Program-made: the position numbers and the translations under genes | Part shown: one piece after another, positions 10,464 through 48,618 of the stretch | Layout of the letters: each line of letters starts with the position of its first letter | How positions within the stretch are numbered: position 1 is the first letter of the stretch | DNA from: Bacteroidota bacterium | GTDB taxonomy: Bacteria; Bacteroidota; Bacteroidia; 2-12-FULL-35-15 | Length of the DNA stretch: 64,000 bases | NCBI GenBank assembly: GCA_947479085.1 | Contig: CANJYB010000011.1 | Location: 1-64,000, forward strand | Direction of reading: 5' to 3' | The notes under the pieces: model-generated | What the model saw: only the letters and a program-made list of their open reading frames with translations | What the model was told of the DNA's origin: nothing | The model's database searches: none

Positions 10464-12008
10464 ATGGAAAATAAAATAAAGGAACTGGAGAAGAAAATAG
10501 CCGAAGCGCAACTGGGTGGTGGGCAAAAGAGAATAGACTCGCAACATAAAAAAGGAAAGCTGACGGCAAGAGAACGTATTCATTTTTTGATGGACGAAGG
10601 AAGTTTCGAAGAAATAGGAATGATGGTGACCCACCGTTCCACACAGTTTGGGCTGGAAAGAGAAAAATATTTAGGAGATGGAGTAATTACAGGATACGGT
10701 ACCATTAACGGAAGAATGGTGTATGTGTATTCCCAGGATTTTACGGTATTTGGAGGTTCTTTGTCGGAAACACATGCGGAAAAGATTTGCAAAATAATGG
10801 ACCTTGCCATGAAAAATGGCGCCCCGGTTATCGGGCTGAACGATAGCGGAGGTGCCCGTATACAGGAAGGAGTAGTTTCGTTAGGCGGATATGCGGATAT
10901 ATTTTATCGCAATACATTGGCTTCTGGAGTGGTGCCACAGCTGTCGGCTATTATGGGTCCCTGTGCTGGTGGTGCGGTGTATTCTCCGGCCATTACCGAC
11001 TTTATTATGATGGTGGAAAACACTTCGTATATGTTTGTAACCGGTCCTAATGTGGTAAAAACAGTAACTCACGAAGAGGTAACTTCAGAGGAACTTGGTG
11101 GAGCATCCACCCATAGTACCAAATCCGGTGTTACCCATTTTTCATGCGCCAACGAAATAGAATGCATTAACAATATTAAAGCATTGCTGAGCTATATGCC
11201 TCAGAACTGTGAAGACACAGCCCCTTCGGTGGCTTATGAAAATAACGGCAACGAAAAACGCCCGGAACTAAACACGCTTATCCCTGAAAACCCAAATCAG
11301 CCATACGATATCAGAGATGTTATTAACGGGGTGATTGACAGGGAAACGTTCCTTGAAGTACATAAAAACTTTGCAGAAAACATAGTGGTGGGCTTTGCCC
11401 GTTTGGCAGGCAAAAGCATTGGTATTGTTGCCAACCAGCCGGCATTTTTGGCAGGTGTGCTGGATATTAATTCTTCTACCAAGGCGGCCCGTTTTGTTCG
11501 TTTCTGCGATTGTTTTAATATTCCTTTGCTGGTGTTCGAAGATGTTCCGGGTTTTCTTCCGGGTACAGACCAGGAATGGCATGGCATTATTACTAATGGT
11601 GCAAAACTATTGTACGCATTTTGCGAAGCAACGGTGCCAAGGGTTACGGTAATTATCCGTAAGGCTTACGGTGGTGCTTATGATGTAATGAACAGCAAGC
11701 ATATAGGTGCGGATATGAATTATGCCTGGCCTTCGGCAGAGATTGCAGTGATGGGAGCAAAAGGTGCGGCAGAAATAATATTTAAGGCAGAAATAGCAGC
11801 CGACAAAGACCCGGTGGCCAAGCTTGCTGAAAAGGAAAAGGAATACATTGAGCATTTTGCCAACCCTTACCGTGCAGCCGAAAGAGGCTATGTGGATGAG
11901 GTTATAAAACCCGAAGACACACGCGAGAAACTAATCAGGGCTTTTGCAATGCTTAAAAACAAGGTGGCTAAATTGCCGAAGAAAAAACACGGGAATATAC
12001 CGTTGTAG
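10464..12008 (+). CDS. pccB: Acyl-CoA (propionyl-CoA) carboxylase, carboxyltransferase beta subunit
   Basis: 514 aa. It carries the twin crotonase-fold carboxyltransferase with oxyanion-hole glycines in [15 protein letters not shown] and [13 protein letters not shown] (N half) and [15 protein letters not shown] and [11 protein letters not shown] (C half). It transfers CO2 from biotin-carrier protein to propionyl-CoA or a related acyl-CoA. Length and motifs fit PccB/MmdA proteins; acetyl-CoA carboxylase AccD is much shorter. The biotin carboxylase and biotin-carrier subunits are not adjacent, so the partner is encoded elsewhere. A TAATTTTG box at 10398-10405 is a possible -7 promoter element. 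Confidence 0.93.
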
Positions 12009-12032
12009 TAAGAAGCTATTGAGTTAAGACTT

Positions 12033-13649
12033 TTACTGGATAATTATTTTCTTGTTTGTAATGTTTTTCTGTTGGTCTGTTATCTGGACAAAGTAAACAC
12101 CAGCACCCATTTCGCCTTTTTCTATTATTAGTTGGGTGCCTGTAAAGTTTATTGTTCTTATTTCTTTGCCAAGTAAGTTCATTATTTTGACAGTTGTGTT
12201 TTTTTGTTCGGTATTGAATTTAATATAGGTATGATAACTAAACGGGTTTGGATAAATACTTATTCCATTCGCTTCATTAGTAATTGAATTGATGCCAACT
12301 GTTGGGTTATGGCAGGGTGGACAACCATTATCCATAGTATATTTCCATAGGTCACCATAAATATAATGGATGTTATCATTTAAACCACCGTATAACCAAA
12401 GGTTTCCACTATTATCTTTAAATGGAAGCGCACCACACCTTGACCTAGGTTTATTTAGGGGGCTAGAAACACCTAAAGTTCCGAATGATGAAGTATAATT
12501 TTGAATTGTATCATTAGCAGCCCAAATCCATTTTAAGATATTAGTATCGAAATATACCAAATCGTTAAAATCAAAGTAATTATTTACACCGCCCATCATC
12601 CATAAATTGTCGCATGCATCTATCCAGCACGCTCTCGTTTCAACCCTAGAATGTGGAATTACATTATCACTTTGTCCATTAAATGTATAATCACAAGTAG
12701 TATCGCTATAAACAGCGTTATTCATGACTGTATTTGTTGTATCTCCCCATACCCAAGTCCACATATTACTGTTAATTTCGTATTTAAAAATTCCTTTAAG
12801 ATGATTGCTAACAGCGTGATACAACCAAAGGTTATTATTTGAATCTATCCATCTGGTATAAGCAAAGAAATCATTTCCTGGCGTATTATTTACCGAAGGA
12901 ATACCCTTTTGTCCATAAACTGGAGCTCCTGAAATATTACCATTTACCCAAATCCAATTGTTTGTAGCTATTCTATATTTCCAAAGGCAACCTCGTAAAT
13001 CAAGCAACCATAAATTATCATTATTATCCGCCCAAGTTAAACCCATCTCTTCTTGAGGAGGAGGTTCATTTGTTGAGCTTTCAATTCCTTTTGTACCATA
13101 AACGCCTTGATAACCACCGCAAGAAGGTATTGTATCACCCTTCATCCAAGTCCACATATTAGTTGAAATATTGTACTTCCATAAATCATTTCGATCACAT
13201 AACAAACCAGTTTGATAATAACTAGTACCTCCAAACAACCAGAGGTTTCCTTGATTATCTGTCCAAGATTCACTTTCTGCTCTTTCTCCAGGGGTATTAG
13301 CAGGTGAAGCAATTCCCATTATTCCAAAGATTGGTCTTACATCATTTAACCCTCCAGAACCTTTTATCCAAGTCCATTGATTAATACTAACATCATATTT
13401 CCATAAATCATCAATAGTTCCAGTATGACTAACTCCACCATACAACCAAAAATTACCTTGATTATCTGTCCATTCAGTTGCCTCATAAAGTCCGCGAGGT
13501 TTATTGGTTGGGCTTGAAACGCCCATCGTTCCATAATTTCCAATATAATTAGTTGTTTGTGTTCCACCCATCCAAGTCCATTCACCTGTCTGTGCAAGTG
13601 TTTGTAATGTCAGCCCTAACAACAGTAAAAGAGTTTTTATTTTTTTCAT
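12033..13649 (-). CDS. Kelch-like repeat T9SS-secreted protein
   Basis: 538 aa. A signal peptide (about 1-19, ending LQTLAQ) is followed by about six repeats of 60-90 aa, each with W-W or WTW, YG(TM)G(V/I)xSP.N(T/K)P, a tryptophan and D-NLWL(F/Y)GG, then DLWKY. These are Kelch/galactose-oxidase-type beta-propeller blades. A T9SS type A sorting domain ends the protein (ISIYPNPFSYHTYI, then GVYFVQITD and NKKIIIQ). By family knowledge it is a secreted or cell-surface protein; the ligand is unknown. Repeats are conserved at protein level but degenerate at DNA level. Convergent with the carboxylase gene. Confidence 0.88.
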   Translation of the reverse strand: MKKIKTLLLLLGLTLQTLAQTGEWTWMGGTQTTNYIGNYGTMGVSSPTNKPRGLYEATEWTDNQGNFWLYGGVSHTGTIDDLWKYDVSINQWTWIKGSGGLNDVRPIFGIMGIASPANTPGERAESESWTDNQGNLWLFGGTSYYQTGLLCDRNDLWKYNISTNMWTWMKGDTIPSCGGYQGVYGTKGIESSTNEPPPQEEMGLTWADNNDNLWLLDLRGCLWKYRIATNNWIWVNGNISGAPVYGQKGIPSVNNTPGNDFFAYTRWIDSNNNLWLYHAVSNHLKGIFKYEINSNMWTWVWGDTTNTVMNNAVYSDTTCDYTFNGQSDNVIPHSRVETRACWIDACDNLWMMGGVNNYFDFNDLVYFDTNILKWIWAANDTIQNYTSSFGTLGVSSPLNKPRSRCGALPFKDNSGNLWLYGGLNDNIHYIYGDLWKYTMDNGCPPCHNPTVGINSITNEANGISIYPNPFSYHTYIKFNTEQKNTTVKIMNLLGKEIRTINFTGTQLIIEKGEMGAGVYFVQITDQQKNITNKKIIIQ

Positions 13650-13856
13650 TGCGTTTTTGTTTAATTATTTCTTAAAGTTTCGTTCGTGGAGCAAGTTTCG
13701 TTGAAACGATCTTAAATTACGCCTAACATATTAATATTTGAAGTTCTAAAAATACTAATTAAAGCTTTAGCCAAAGATTTCTTTTGGCGTTTGTTTCTTG
13801 AAACACAAACAGGGGCAAAAAAACAAGTTCCCGTAGGGAGCTAAAAAGGGTAAAAA

Positions 13857-14108
13857 CCTCCATTTCTACTTTTCCTTTAAGAAAAAGTATTTTTTATTAC
13901 AGGAAGAATTGTTTTTCTTGAAGAGAGACAAGGTTTTCTTTAAGAAAAAACACATTTCTTAAAGAATAAGTAGTTTTTCTTAAAGAATGTTTTCTTTTTC
14001 TTAAAGCGAAAACAGGTTTTCTTGTAAACAGGTGTGGTTCTTCTTAAAGAAAAAATACATTTCTTAAAGAAAACCTATCTTTTCTTAAAGAAAAAGTAGA
14101 AATGGAGG
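13857..14108. repeat. Phased array of TTTCTTAAAGAAA palindromes flanked by inverted terminal repeats
   Basis: About ten copies of a core TTCTTAAAGAA (variants CTTTAAG, CTTGAAG). The C of CTT falls at 13875, 13917, 13938, 13958, 13979, 14000, 14021, 14043, 14063 and 14084, that is a step of 20-22 bp with one skipped unit. The ends are a near-perfect inverted repeat of about 29 bp (CCTCCATTTCTACTTTT at 13857 and its complement ending at 14108). Confidence 0.85.
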
Positions 14109-14358
14109 AAAAGCGAAAACCTGGGGCGTTTTTATAATCAAAAATTGACTTTAAGGGTGTTTTTAAGGAGTAGAAAAATCCGCCCCATATATTATAATTT
14201 TTATAAAACGAGACATGTTTTTTAGAAAAACGTTCGATTTTACAGTTTTAACAAAAAACGAAAAAAGACTATTCTGTTAAAAACAATGCATTTAAACGCG
14301 TAAAAAGGCCATAAAATTATGGTGAGGATGGTTTTTTTTGGCGCCCGAGTGAATTTAA

Positions 14359-14610
14359 GCGTAATCATTTACTATTTGAGTGTAATCATCTACTATCTGA
14401 ACGCAGTCGTTTACCATATGAGCGTTGTCATTTACCATTTGAGAACACACGTTTACTATATGAGCATACTCATTTACCATTTGACCGTTGTCATTTACCG
14501 TTTGAGTGAAGTCGTTTACCAAATGAACGCATTCATTTACTATATGAGCGTAGTCATTTACCATCTGACGGTATTCGTTTGGCAAAAAACGGTTGTCGTT
14601 TCGCTTTTCA
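14359..14610. repeat. 21-bp tandem repeat array (12 units)
   Basis: Head-to-tail units with consensus about GCGTWGTCATTTACCATWTGA. The first ten are well conserved and the last two degenerate. Because 21 is a multiple of 3, both strands stay open and spell heptads such as MVNDYAH on the minus strand. No signal peptide or non-repeat domain accompanies them, so a protein is doubtful. Confidence 0.88.
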
Positions 14611-14660
14611 CGAAGTTGTTTAATTCTTTATTTATGTACTTTTGCCGAAATAATAAAAGG

Positions 14661-14759
14661 GTCACGCAAAGACGCAAAGGACGCAAAGATGTTTTTAAAA
14701 TTAAAAATGTTTTTTTATTCCTCTTTTATCTTTGCGCTCTCTGCGCCTTTGCGAGAAAC
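14661..14759. repeat. CGCAAAGACGC dispersed inverted-repeat element, complete copy
   Basis: Begins TCACGCAAAGACGCAAAGG and ends CTGCGCCTTTGCGAGA, the imperfect complement. Related copies occur at 951-1016, 1071-1149 and 17203-17273. The T-rich middle and size of about 100 bp suggest a MITE or REP-pair-like element, five bases upstream of the start of the next gene. Confidence 0.75.
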
Positions 14760-14763
14760 AAAC

Positions 14764-15255
14764 ATGGCAAAACACACGTTAGAAATATCTTACGATTATG
14801 ATTTCCTCTTAATCGGAATTTCCTCTCACGAGAAAGATTACCGCATTTGCTGGGCATTGAATAAAAAGCTGGGAATAGACCTGGTAAAACAGGATTCGCT
14901 GGAAATAAAAGGTAAAAAACAAACCACGCCTTCGTACTTTTCTTTTTTTATTTTTGATAAAGAAGAAGATTTCCTGGAGTATTCGGTGATTGCTAATTTC
15001 AGCGAAAACAAAGCGCTGGTGACAAAAGAAAACACCTTGTTCAACGAGGATGATAAATCGAAAAAGGATCAATCGGAAAACGAATTGCTTATCCCGGAAC
15101 AAAAGCAAATGAATTACTTTTTTATGGTAAGAGGAGAAGTGGATGATGATGAAGCAGAAGAATTAGTAAAAAACATAAAGGAAATAGATGTGGTGCAAAC
15201 GGCAGTTCGCATTGATGTTACCCAATTAAAATCGAAACAAAATTTAATATTTTAA
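14764..15255 (+). CDS. IPExxxVDY family protein
   Basis: 163 aa from ATG 14764 (MAKHTLEISYDYDFLLIG). The family's name-giving motif appears as IPEQKQMNY at 110-118 (Met-Asn in place of Val-Asp). Function is unknown; in Bacteroidota it is commonly found next to pyruvate kinase, as here. The upstream in-frame extension to 14593 runs through a dispersed repeat and is rejected. No signal peptide or membrane segment is present. The acidic stretch DDDEAEE is at 127-133. Confidence 0.85.
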   Translation: MAKHTLEISYDYDFLLIGISSHEKDYRICWALNKKLGIDLVKQDSLEIKGKKQTTPSYFSFFIFDKEEDFLEYSVIANFSENKALVTKENTLFNEDDKSKKDQSENELLIPEQKQMNYFFMVRGEVDDDEAEELVKNIKEIDVVQTAVRIDVTQLKSKQNLIF

Positions 15256-15260
15256 AATAT

Positions 15261-15349
15261 TCAACACAGAGAAAAAGGAGAAAACAGAGTTTCACAGAGA
15301 TAAAACCCTCCTCCGTGAAACTCTTTACCCTTTGTGTACTCTGTGTTGA
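15261..15349. repeat. CACAGAG dispersed element, complete copy with terminal inverted repeats
   Basis: Ends TCAACACAGAG (15261-15271) and CTCTGTGTTGA (15339-15349) are perfect complements; inside, TTTCACAGAG pairs with CCGTGAAACTC. About 89 bp in all. Half-copies lie at 9086, 26586 and 49681. It sits between the IPExxxVDY gene and pyk, so any co-transcript must run through it. Confidence 0.8.
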
Positions 15350-15370
15350 AAAGACAAAAACAAAAACAAA

Positions 15371-16789
15371 ATGAAAAGAACAAAAATAGTTGCAACACTT
15401 GGCCCGGCATCCACCACGAGTGATGTATTGGAAGCCATGATAAAAGCAGGGGTGAATGTGTGCAGGATAAATTTTTCGCATGGCTCGTACGACAATGTGT
15501 TGGTGCAGATTAACAATGTAAGAGAACTCAATAAAAAACTAAATACACATGTGGCCATTCTTGCCGATTTGCAAGGACCAAAGCTTCGAATTGGTGTGGT
15601 GGAAAATAACGGGGTGGAACTGATAGTGGGAAGAGAAATAGTTATTACAACTAAAGAGTGTGTAGGCACAGCAGAGCGTGTATATATTACCTATCCGCAA
15701 TTTCCGAAAGATGTAAAAGCAGGAGAAAACATTTTGATTGATGATGGAAAGCTGTTGCTGAAGGTGCTGGAAACAAACGGCATTGATGAGGTGAAGTCGG
15801 TGGTGGTATATGGTGGAATTCTTTCATCAAAAAAAGGAGTGAACCTGCCGAACACCAAAGTGTCGTTACCTTGTTTAACAGAGAAAGACCTGAAAGACCT
15901 TGATTTTGCATTGGAACAGAATGTGGAATGGATTGGGTTATCATTTGTTCGGTCGGTTACGGATATCGTGGACTTAAAGGCAATTATTAAAAAGAAAAAC
16001 AAACATGCACGGGTAATTGCAAAAATAGAAAAACCGGAAGCGCTGGAAGGGATTGATAATATTATTGATATGTCGGACGGGATAATGGTAGCAAGAGGAG
16101 ACCTTGGGGTGGAATTGCCTATGGAACAAGTGCCGCTTGTGCAAAAGATGCTGGTAAGAAAATGCCTTGCAGCCTCCACACCCATCATCATTGCCACACA
16201 AATGATGGAGAGCATGATAGTTAATTTTGCGCCTACCAGGGCAGAGGTGAACGATGTAGCAAATGCTGTATTGGACGGGGCAGATGCTGTAATGCTGAGC
16301 GGGGAAACCTCAGTAGGAAAGTATCCGGTAAAGGTGATTGAAGCCATGACCCGGATAATTATGAATGTGGAACAGGAGGAAACCATCTATTACAAAGAGC
16401 ACGAACCGATGACCAAGAATCAGAGTTTTGTTGCAGATTCTATTTGTTTTAATGCCTGCGTAATGGCCAAACAGGCGGATGTTAAGGCAATCGTTTCGAT
16501 GACCAATTCCGGTTATACAGCCTTTAAACTGGCCAGCCAGCGCCCGCAGGCAAAGATTTATATATTTACTGATAACGAATCGTTACTCACCACGCTTAAC
16601 CTGGTATGGGGAGTTAAAGGGTTTTACTATAACAAATACGAAAGTACAGATCAAACTATTTCAGACATATTGGAAGTTTTAAAATCAAGGCATTTGGTTG
16701 ATACGGATGACCTTGTTATTAATATTGTTTCGATGCCAATGAAAGAAAGAGGAAGGACAAATATGTTAAAGCTTTCGCAGATTAAATAA
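15371..16789 (+). CDS. pyk: Pyruvate kinase
   Basis: 472 aa. It converts phosphoenolpyruvate and ADP to pyruvate and ATP, the last glycolytic step. The N-terminus KRTKIVATLGPAS, NFSHGSYDN, LADLQGPKLRIG and the signature around IAKIEKPEALEGIDNIID / GIMVARGDLGVELP / IATQMMESM mark the TIM-barrel active site. The C-terminal allosteric-like domain (about 340-472) is present. Length is normal. It probably shares a transcript with the IPExxxVDY gene. Confidence 0.98.
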   Translation: MKRTKIVATLGPASTTSDVLEAMIKAGVNVCRINFSHGSYDNVLVQINNVRELNKKLNTHVAILADLQGPKLRIGVVENNGVELIVGREIVITTKECVGTAERVYITYPQFPKDVKAGENILIDDGKLLLKVLETNGIDEVKSVVVYGGILSSKKGVNLPNTKVSLPCLTEKDLKDLDFALEQNVEWIGLSFVRSVTDIVDLKAIIKKKNKHARVIAKIEKPEALEGIDNIIDMSDGIMVARGDLGVELPMEQVPLVQKMLVRKCLAASTPIIIATQMMESMIVNFAPTRAEVNDVANAVLDGADAVMLSGETSVGKYPVKVIEAMTRIIMNVEQEETIYYKEHEPMTKNQSFVADSICFNACVMAKQADVKAIVSMTNSGYTAFKLASQRPQAKIYIFTDNESLLTTLNLVWGVKGFYYNKYESTDQTISDILEVLKSRHLVDTDDLVINIVSMPMKERGRTNMLKLSQIK

Positions 16790-47438: not shown

Positions 47439-48618
47439 AAATGAAGATATTCTTTGAATATTAAATTCTAATTGCCTTTCTTATAGTTTACCTAAGGCTG
47501 AAAATTAAAAGCCTAAAATTAGTTTTTTATTGGGAGATGGAATAAAAATGTTTTGGGAATTTATGAATAAGTGTTATAGTAGAAAAGGAGGTTGTAAATC
47601 AAGGATATTAAAGCGTAGAATATTTTCAAGAAAAGTGATAAAATAAGAGGTAAATTAAACAGGGCAAAAACAAGTGCTTTGAATATCTGGAAATGCAATT
47701 TTGAAATATTAGGAATTTTTTACAAAAGTTTGGAATTTTATTGAAGGGAAACTACTTTTTATTACAAAAGTTGGGAATTTTATCCAAACGAAAGAACATT
47801 AGAATACAAAAGTTAGGAATTTTATTAAAGGCAAAGTCTTTTTATTACAAAAGTTGAGAATTTTATTTGATGAAGAGTTGGTTGATTTATAAAAGTTATG
47901 AATTTTATTGAAGCTAAAGTACTTTTTAGTACATAAAATTCCCAACTTTTCAAAAAGAATTCCCAAATCGGCAAAACAACCTGAAATACAATGTTAAAAG
48001 ACTGTTTTAATTTTCATATTGCCTTATCAGGGTTCGTATAAAAAGGAAATAAAGAGTACTTCACTTTCCACCTAAACCGGATTTTCGTTTTAATTGGGTT
48101 TTATGGAAAATTTTCTTTCCGGATTTTAAAAACTTAGTTAGCAATTATGTGCTAAATGAGTGAAGAATATGTAGGTTCGGTTTGTATTGTATGATTGTTG
48201 GAATTATTATGTATGAAAGTGTTGGTTATGTAGTGTTTGGGTTGGATTGCTATGGTAGGATGAATGGATTTATATTGTTAATTAGATTAGATAATATTGT
48301 ATATTAGATAATACTATAGTGTATAATTTATATTGGTTTATTGTTAATGAGCGGGTATAATGATGTGTGATTATATATATTATAGTGTATTAATGTAGGT
48401 GTATTGTTGTGCGATGGGTGTTTTTATATTGTATTTTGATTATACTGTTAGCGTATTTATATTCGGGTGATATGTTAAGAGGACAATGGTGAGGTGTGAA
48501 ATGGATTAAATGAATGCTTTATAGCATGTTGGGAAGATACTTTTGATATTATGTGGTAATTTTATATTTTTGTGGAGCGAATTGAATTGATTATTTGCGA
48601 AGCGAAAAAAAAGAGAGA
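47439..48618. other. 1.2-kb gene-free divergent intergenic region with a phased array and a C-depleted segment
   Basis: Between threonine dehydrogenase (-) and the unknown 312-aa gene (+). It holds a 42/21-bp-period array (47700-47980) and then a segment at 48181-48600 containing 13 C in 420 nt on the + strand. No coding frame, tRNA or known ncRNA is recognised. Confidence 0.75.
47700..47980. repeat. 42-bp (2 x 21) direct-repeat array closed by inverted copies
   Basis: Five copies of TACAAAAGTTNGGAATTTTAT start at 47721, 47763, 47805, 47846 and 47889, a step of 41-43 bp. The intervening 21 bp (TGAAGGGAAACTACTTTTTAT type) is a weaker version of the same unit. On the right, ATAAAATTCCCAACTTTT (47933-47951) and AAAAAGAATTCCCAA are inverted copies; on the left, TTAGGAATTTTTT is a partial unit. 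Confidence 0.8.

Follow-up and report, generated by a model that had tools for sequence, protein, structure and literature searches.

Plasmid iterons are tandem sites of about 20 bp which are phased on the DNA helix. The arrays described here are likewise made of tandem, helix-phased sites of about 20 bp; unlike iterons, they occupy many chromosomal loci, and the genes next to the arrays that were read include none recognised as a replication gene.

In Porphyromonas gingivalis, BrickBuilt is built from one 23-nt unit with a leader and a tail, and is found at 19 loci with 1 to 22.8 copies (PMC4596501). BrickBuilt and the present arrays have in common intergenic tandem units on the scale of the helix, many loci per Bacteroidota genome, inverted ends and predicted long stem-loops. 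By contrast, the lag is here 21 bp, the units are mostly different from locus to locus, the copies number about 12, inverted ends are not general and a conserved gene family often stands behind the array.

LytTR binding sites are mostly 9-bp repeats with 12 bp between them, i.e., a period of 21 bp, and the repeat sequence is poorly conserved (PMC6193735); for LytTR-like operons of Bacteroides a spacing of 11+11 = 22 bp is reported. The arrays resemble LytTR Regulatory Systems by the 21-bp period, the low conservation of the repeat and a regulator gene close by. They differ from them since these systems have two repeats near the promoter and a membrane partner, whereas about twelve repeats and a helical-FN3 gene are found here. 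RemA of Bacillus has a LytTR-related domain in a ring, around which repetitive DNA of low conservation, lying upstream of promoters, is proposed to be wrapped; its footprints comprise at least six 7-bp regions with 3 bp between them (PMC8481266). The wrapping of repetitive DNA could be likened to what is proposed for the present arrays, but the spacing of RemA is 7 bp + 3 bp and the units are here of 21 bp.

No description of such arrays was found among the papers listed from an open-access collection, which omits most subscription papers. The results below point to an undescribed type of control region.

The palindromic array and its orthologous sites

The window, i.e., the whole stretch of DNA analysed (64,000 nucleotides, contig CANJYB010000011.1 of the Bacteroidota bacterium assembly GCA_947479085.1, hereafter G000), contains array 1 at 13857..14108 (no strand assigned), in which a palindromic 21-bp unit, with the core TTCTTAAAGAA, recurs at about 11 sites. 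Core-like sites (at least 8 of 11 positions matching) start at 13873, 13894, 13915, 13936, 13956, 13977, 13998, 14041, 14061 and 14082; a further, weaker site is seen at 14019, and the steps from site to site are of 20 to 22 bp. The first-pass annotation had counted ten copies at about 21-bp spacing: the 21-bp grid is real, but the ten include degenerate copies, the exact palindrome being present on one strand at 6 sites. The whole window has 21 matches to the core (at most one mismatch, both strands), whereas 100 shuffles average 5.06 and never exceed 10. The lag-21 self-match of array 1 is 0.52, a value reached by none of 1000 dinucleotide shuffles at any of 54 lags (best 0.435). The bracketing inverted repeat of about 29 bp that had been announced is confirmed: the left arm (13857..13885, + strand), which begins with CCTCCATTTCTACTTTT, a motif recurring at other arrays, pairs over 29 bp and with one mismatch with the right arm (14080..14108, − strand), i.e., terminal inverted repeats are present.

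Other readings were rejected or found unsupported, namely, for array 1, (i) a protein-coding repeat, as no ORF of at least 80 aa spans the array and the 20- and 22-bp steps break the frame; (ii) a CRISPR, as the 21-bp units are head-to-tail, without unique spacers between repeats; (iii) a known structured RNA, as Rfam gives only MIR2934 for region 12000-15500, at 39.3 and 28.2 bits vs. a cut-off of 100; and, for the region, sigma-70-type promoters, of which 3 are found vs. 3.8 expected.

Two more 21-bp arrays of the window had been missed by the first-pass annotation. Array 2 (14347..14613, no strand assigned), about 240 bp to the right of array 1, has about 11 copies of a 21-bp unit of type ATTTGAGCGTAGTCATTTACC, different from that of array 1; its lag-21 match of 0.67 is reached by none of 1000 shuffles. 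A related array exists in the congener G015 and a remnant in G005. Array 3 (about 47661..47982, listed as 47696..47982, no strand assigned) is made of a 42-bp double unit, AAAAGTTGGGAATTTTATT / AAAGTACTTTTTATT, and looks similar, on visual inspection, to arrays of contigs 1 and 4 (L095, L010) and to array L112 of G004.

Array 1 is divergent from a kelch-repeat protein gene with a type IX secretion tail (12033..13649, − strand). Array 2 is followed by a small conserved gene (14764..15255, + strand), which we take to be of the IPExxxVDY type and for which a Pfam scan gave no match. At the orthologous site of G004, only about 93 bp, devoid of any array, separate the carboxylase gene (upstream) from the IPExxxVDY-type gene. 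In G005, homology to the window extends on the carboxylase side up to 12068 and resumes at 14533, the kelch gene being within the segment that does not align. In G015, homology starts at 14216, so that array 2 is common to this genome and array 1 is not. Array 1 is thus absent at the orthologous site of G004, G005 and G015. The site in G005 cannot be taken as a clean empty site, because what G000 has in addition comprises, besides array 1, the kelch gene and the greater part of array 2. In G014 the IPExxxVDY-type gene has an array made of other units.

A DNA search of 41 genomes gave one full second copy of array 1, in the same genome, on contig 20 (G000:C20:54119-54380, 93% identical); contig 4 gave a more diverged array, and other matches were weaker; the short matches in G003, G013, G017, G021 and on contig 13 were inspected and no array was seen at these loci. 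Array 1 therefore does not have the single-copy status which the first-pass annotation had named as counting against its own proposal. The block common to contig 20 begins about 37 bp to the left of the inverted repeat (left extension 13820..13856 according to the alignment, no strand assigned) and ends within a few bases of the right end; the flanks of the two arrays are unrelated. The contig-20 copy stands between a 161-aa regulator gene with a weak LytTR match (20.1 bits, below the cut-off of 22.6) and a gene for a 224-aa protein. In G015 and G004, genes similar to the latter (68-69% identical) are likewise preceded by arrays, whose ends are related.

Survey of periodic segments

The window and 20 stretches of 20 kb of G000 (464 kb) were scanned at lags 12-60, segments within ORFs of more than 220 aa being set aside as coding. 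Among 39 noncoding periodic segments, 27 are at lag 21/42, 2 at 22/44 and 10 at other lags. The congeners G010 and G009, where no gene of the 224-aa family was detected, have only one such segment out of 10 (280 kb), i.e., 0 of 6 for G010 (160 kb) and 1 of 4 for G009 (120 kb), the latter weak, in a single scan window and at lag 42. In G015 (120 kb), 7 of 12 periodic segments are at lag 21/42, some of them weak. The segments at lag 21/42 classed as coding number 7 in G000, 3 in G010, 2 in G009 and 7 in G015; at least one of those of G015 is possibly an array which an over-long ORF happens to cover. A stricter list contains 21 arrays for the 20 stretches of G000, two of them at lag 22/44. By extrapolation the genome probably holds about 225 arrays, i.e., about two hundred intergenic arrays.

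A larger collection (at least 6 scan windows, no ORF of more than 220 aa, lag 20-22 or 41-44) yields 93 segments from several genomes (91 distinct extents): 62 at lag 21, 27 at lag 42 and four at lags 22, 41 and 44. It must be noticed that the period of this collection is set by its filter, the unbiased evidence being that of the survey of G000 and its congeners. The median extent is 252 bp (quartiles 205 and 284), and 26 of 35 well-kept arrays have 9.6 to 13.9 copies. The unit sequences are mostly different between loci. For the 30 survey arrays (24 from G000 and 6 from G015), 27 have both neighbours in view, the genes being in tandem (15), divergent (7) or convergent (5). Arrays of 22-bp units (L165:14462-14793 and L161:12257-12535) were also seen as exceptions to the 21-bp rule.

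Neither a single repeat family that has spread nor accidental slippage easily accounts for what are probably about two hundred arrays of the same period and length and of mostly different sequence; they suggest selection on helical phasing itself.

The gene family behind the arrays

Sixteen matches to the 224-aa protein were obtained from G000. Matches are found in 8 of 36 genomes of the genus, at 69 places in all, and in 21 of 295 genomes of the class. Its AlphaFold2 model (pLDDT 92) shows a predicted helical bundle followed by a beta domain, and the 50 fold matches listed for that domain (PDB) are largely of FN3 type; according to the model, the family is thus a helical-bundle plus FN3-fold protein. 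Sequence searches gave no match in Pfam or PADLOC, only blaVEB in NCBIfam (at 0.0034, for 2 of 50 members), two weak families of unknown function in PHROGs and only licT among PDB sequences (at 0.044).

Fifty members from the genus were aligned and three with less than 500 bp upstream left out. Among the 47 examined, three of which were first found via their arrays, 44 have an array within 1 kb upstream, ending at a median of 99 bp before the start codon; the exceptions are L093, L096 and L123. In genomes of other families, an array, sometimes weak, is present within 1 kb upstream of 19 of 22 homologues (fetched out of 53 places; L206 and L222 are nearly identical loci). Control genes have an upstream array in 11 of 61 cases in the G000 stretches and in 0 of 28 in G010 and G009, a comparison which is not exactly alike as intergenic gaps of at least 250 bp were used for controls and 1 kb upstream for the family. 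Within the class, arrays thus stand before members of one and the same unstudied gene family in several bacterial families. Proteins of 216-320 aa are also encoded right behind arrays (L158:3543-4442, L170:2876-3694, L171:17008-17655, L191:10941-11900, L194:9410-10360 and L195:6048-7004); a Pfam scan of five of them (all but L195) gave no match, and they are possibly remote relatives of the 224-aa family.

The similarity of arrays rises only weakly with the identity of their genes (Spearman 0.17, 820 pairs, 41 loci). The five strongest array pairs (L044-L051, L095-L112, L046-L110, L091-L124 and L039-L040) are clearly related and belong to genes that are 59-80% identical, in different genomes. 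Three gene pairs at 82% identity, two within G004 and the pair L048 (G005)-L094 (G000), have unrelated arrays. Units are therefore conserved in some cases and exchanged in others. The proposal that arrays follow orthologous genes was weakened by this recheck, related units being found in some pairs only.

Regulator genes beside the arrays

G000 has 19 LytTR genes. An array lies within about 320 bp of 6 of the 7 genes shorter than 200 aa vs. 2 of the 12 longer ones (Fisher 0.006); these two have a receiver domain match, one of them below cut-off, and the other ten were classed by length alone. For the gene family, 46 upstream gaps were considered and 42 neighbours obtained, which comprise LytTR (10), GerE (3), HTH_28 (3), HTH_23 (3, possibly the same three), HxlR (1) and HTH_3 (1); the automatic choice overlooked an HxlR gene in G015. 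Among 46 control neighbours, LytTR and GerE are absent from the 25 families listed out of 120, i.e., at most one each, and the Fisher comparison for LytTR sets control hits to 1; the control pool included some genes that also adjoin arrays. Two of the 10 survey-array neighbours scanned are HTH proteins.

The 21-bp period is also found beside non-LytTR regulators (HxlR in G004 and G015, GerE elsewhere), thus LytTR geometry alone fails to explain it. Moreover, the upstream regulator types differ between related arrays (contig 20 of G000 vs. G004 and G015). For array 1, neither adjacent gene is a LytTR or another recognised regulator.

Phased multi-site operators as a tentative explanation

From the observed arrays, with their period, their length, their mostly different units and their location close to regulator genes and to members of the gene family, we infer that a regulator binds the units, cooperatively, and controls transcription. 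We tentatively propose that the arrays are helically phased multi-site operators, array 1 being an orphan copy of this class. In the canonical module, a small DNA-binding gene would adjoin an array of about twelve 21-bp sites, with the helical-FN3 gene about 100 bp further on. The regulator would most often be a LytTR domain without receiver, and otherwise a LuxR/GerE, XRE, HxlR or other HTH protein. Since 21 bp corresponds to two helical turns of DNA, the sites would lie on one face, and the regulator could coat or wrap about 250 bp cooperatively; this coating would switch the adjacent promoter. Units that mostly differ from locus to locus would limit cross-talk. As no recognised regulator or family gene stands beside array 1, it would be an orphan read in trans, presumably by the regulator beside its contig-20 twin. 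By analogy, the 21-bp period of LytTR sites and the LytTR-related ring of RemA make such a mechanism plausible.

The first-pass annotation had seen an operator array in the inside of array 1; this part is favoured by the strict two-turn phasing, the frequent dyad symmetry of units and the position of arrays between small DNA-binding genes and the gene family. The location of 5 of 27 survey arrays between convergent genes and the lack of an array at 3 of 47 family members count against the model. Our confidence in it is slightly less than even, lowered since similar genes have similar array units in some pairs but not in others; the non-LytTR neighbours, the convergent locations, the replacement of units and the block copies in two genomes also keep it at this level. 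A more specific version, in which an undescribed control module, recurring many times in a genome and spread over several families, has its own regulator wrapping each array as a nucleoprotein ring or filament while some process homogenises the arrays at about 21 bp and about 250 bp and lets the sequence change, is possible, if doubtful. If neighbouring regulators do read the arrays, these genomes would offer a ready-made collection of multi-site operators, in which one could study how repeat arrays stay homogeneous amid sequence change.

Copies of array blocks and the end motif

The arrays could instead be mobile or self-spreading (MITE-like or minisatellite), array 1 being a recent orphan insertion and regulation a side effect. 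BrickBuilt of P. gingivalis, a 23-bp minisatellite within a MITE, is a precedent (PMC4596501). The 93% identity of array 1 and the contig-20 array amid unrelated flanks, as well as the absence of array 1 at its orthologous site in three genomes, argue for this explanation. In the same manner, a block of 377 columns of G004 located beside a family gene on contig 1 recurs, 90% identical, on contig 36; other G004 arrays have shorter or weaker mutual similarity. All five sites of the end motif AAACCTCCATTTYY in G004 fall at array loci. Nevertheless, we consider mobility somewhat unlikely: the units are mostly locus-specific, unlike those of one spreading family, and arrays precede homologues of the gene in other families. 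Moreover, only 7 of the 30 motif loci that were fetched have a 21/42-bp array within 450 bp (6 belong to genomes that carry the gene family; the seventh, of G048, was missed by a stricter scan), so that the motif marks at best a subgroup of arrays and is not general. The motif loci that were read showed no transposase with the end motif; in G005, a DDE transposase was found as the neighbour of one array.

The ends of array 1 had also been taken for those of a mobile unit, with a sequence search proposed for an empty site and target duplications. The search did find the second copy, but no clean empty site, and visual inspection of the junctions of both copies in G000 showed no target site duplication beyond A-runs. 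In both the G000 and the G004 pairs, the copied block overruns the CCTCCATTT end by about 40 bp, hence this end is not an exact element boundary. Inverted ends are strong (score of at least 14) in 3 of 93 array segments vs. 0.7% of mismatched pairs in a narrow test which missed known inverted-end arrays, e.g., those of contigs 20 and 4; a wider test, which also counts palindromic units, gives 23 of 85 vs. 1%.

Two minor observations may be added. The G004 block pair (L106:2716-3087 and L115:2085-2456) shows the same pairing of a gene-linked copy with a second copy as contigs 20 and 11 here. In two genomes, genes which look rlmN-like on visual inspection are found at no more than about 3 kb from arrays whose ends are related (L010 and L014).

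Symmetry, folding and curvature

The unit consensus is dyad-symmetric at p<0.05 in 33 of 92 arrays. Another explanation is a DNA- or RNA-structure element, i.e., curvature, wrapping by general nucleoid proteins, cruciforms or long hairpin RNA, with no dedicated regulator. It would account for a period that matters more than the sequence. The single-strand fold has a z below −3 in 58 of 92 arrays (25 shuffles each) and falls in the lowest 5% of 30 column-permuted controls, which phase drift makes imperfect, in 52 of 85. Array 1 forms one long predicted hairpin (z −9.0); the fold of array 2 is not unusual (z −1.0), thus hairpins are not general. Repetition every two turns adds up local bends, the mean end-to-end ratio being 0.815 vs. 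0.915 for shuffles (82 arrays). However, unit-scrambled, phase-kept controls give 0.845, and the median percentile of the arrays among them is 0.42; curvature beyond the effect of phasing itself is unsupported, and array 1 is little curved (0.925). Nor would this explanation lead one to expect small regulator genes beside the arrays, and a purely structural role is unlikely.

Neutral tandem duplication by slippage, with 21 bp as an accident of the mechanism, would fit the likeness of copies within an array, the seemingly arbitrary units, the common 42-bp double units and the replaceable units of close genes, but is very improbable given the minority of other periods (10 of 39 segments), the narrow range of copy number in 26 of 35 well-kept arrays and the near absence of arrays from the two sampled congeners without the gene family.

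Sequences beside arrays 2 and 3

Just after array 2, the octamer TACTTTTG (14637..14644, + strand) resembles a −7 box, and fits what we take to be the Bacteroidota consensus, TAnnTTTG. It is identical in G015 and differs by one base in G005 (TATTTTTG). Beside array 3, positions 47985-48590 of the window are AT-rich, with no obvious gene. Finally, two intergenic inverted repeats of types GCAAAGACGCAAAG and ACACAGAGAAAA (14661-14760 and 15262-15352) flank the IPExxxVDY-type gene.
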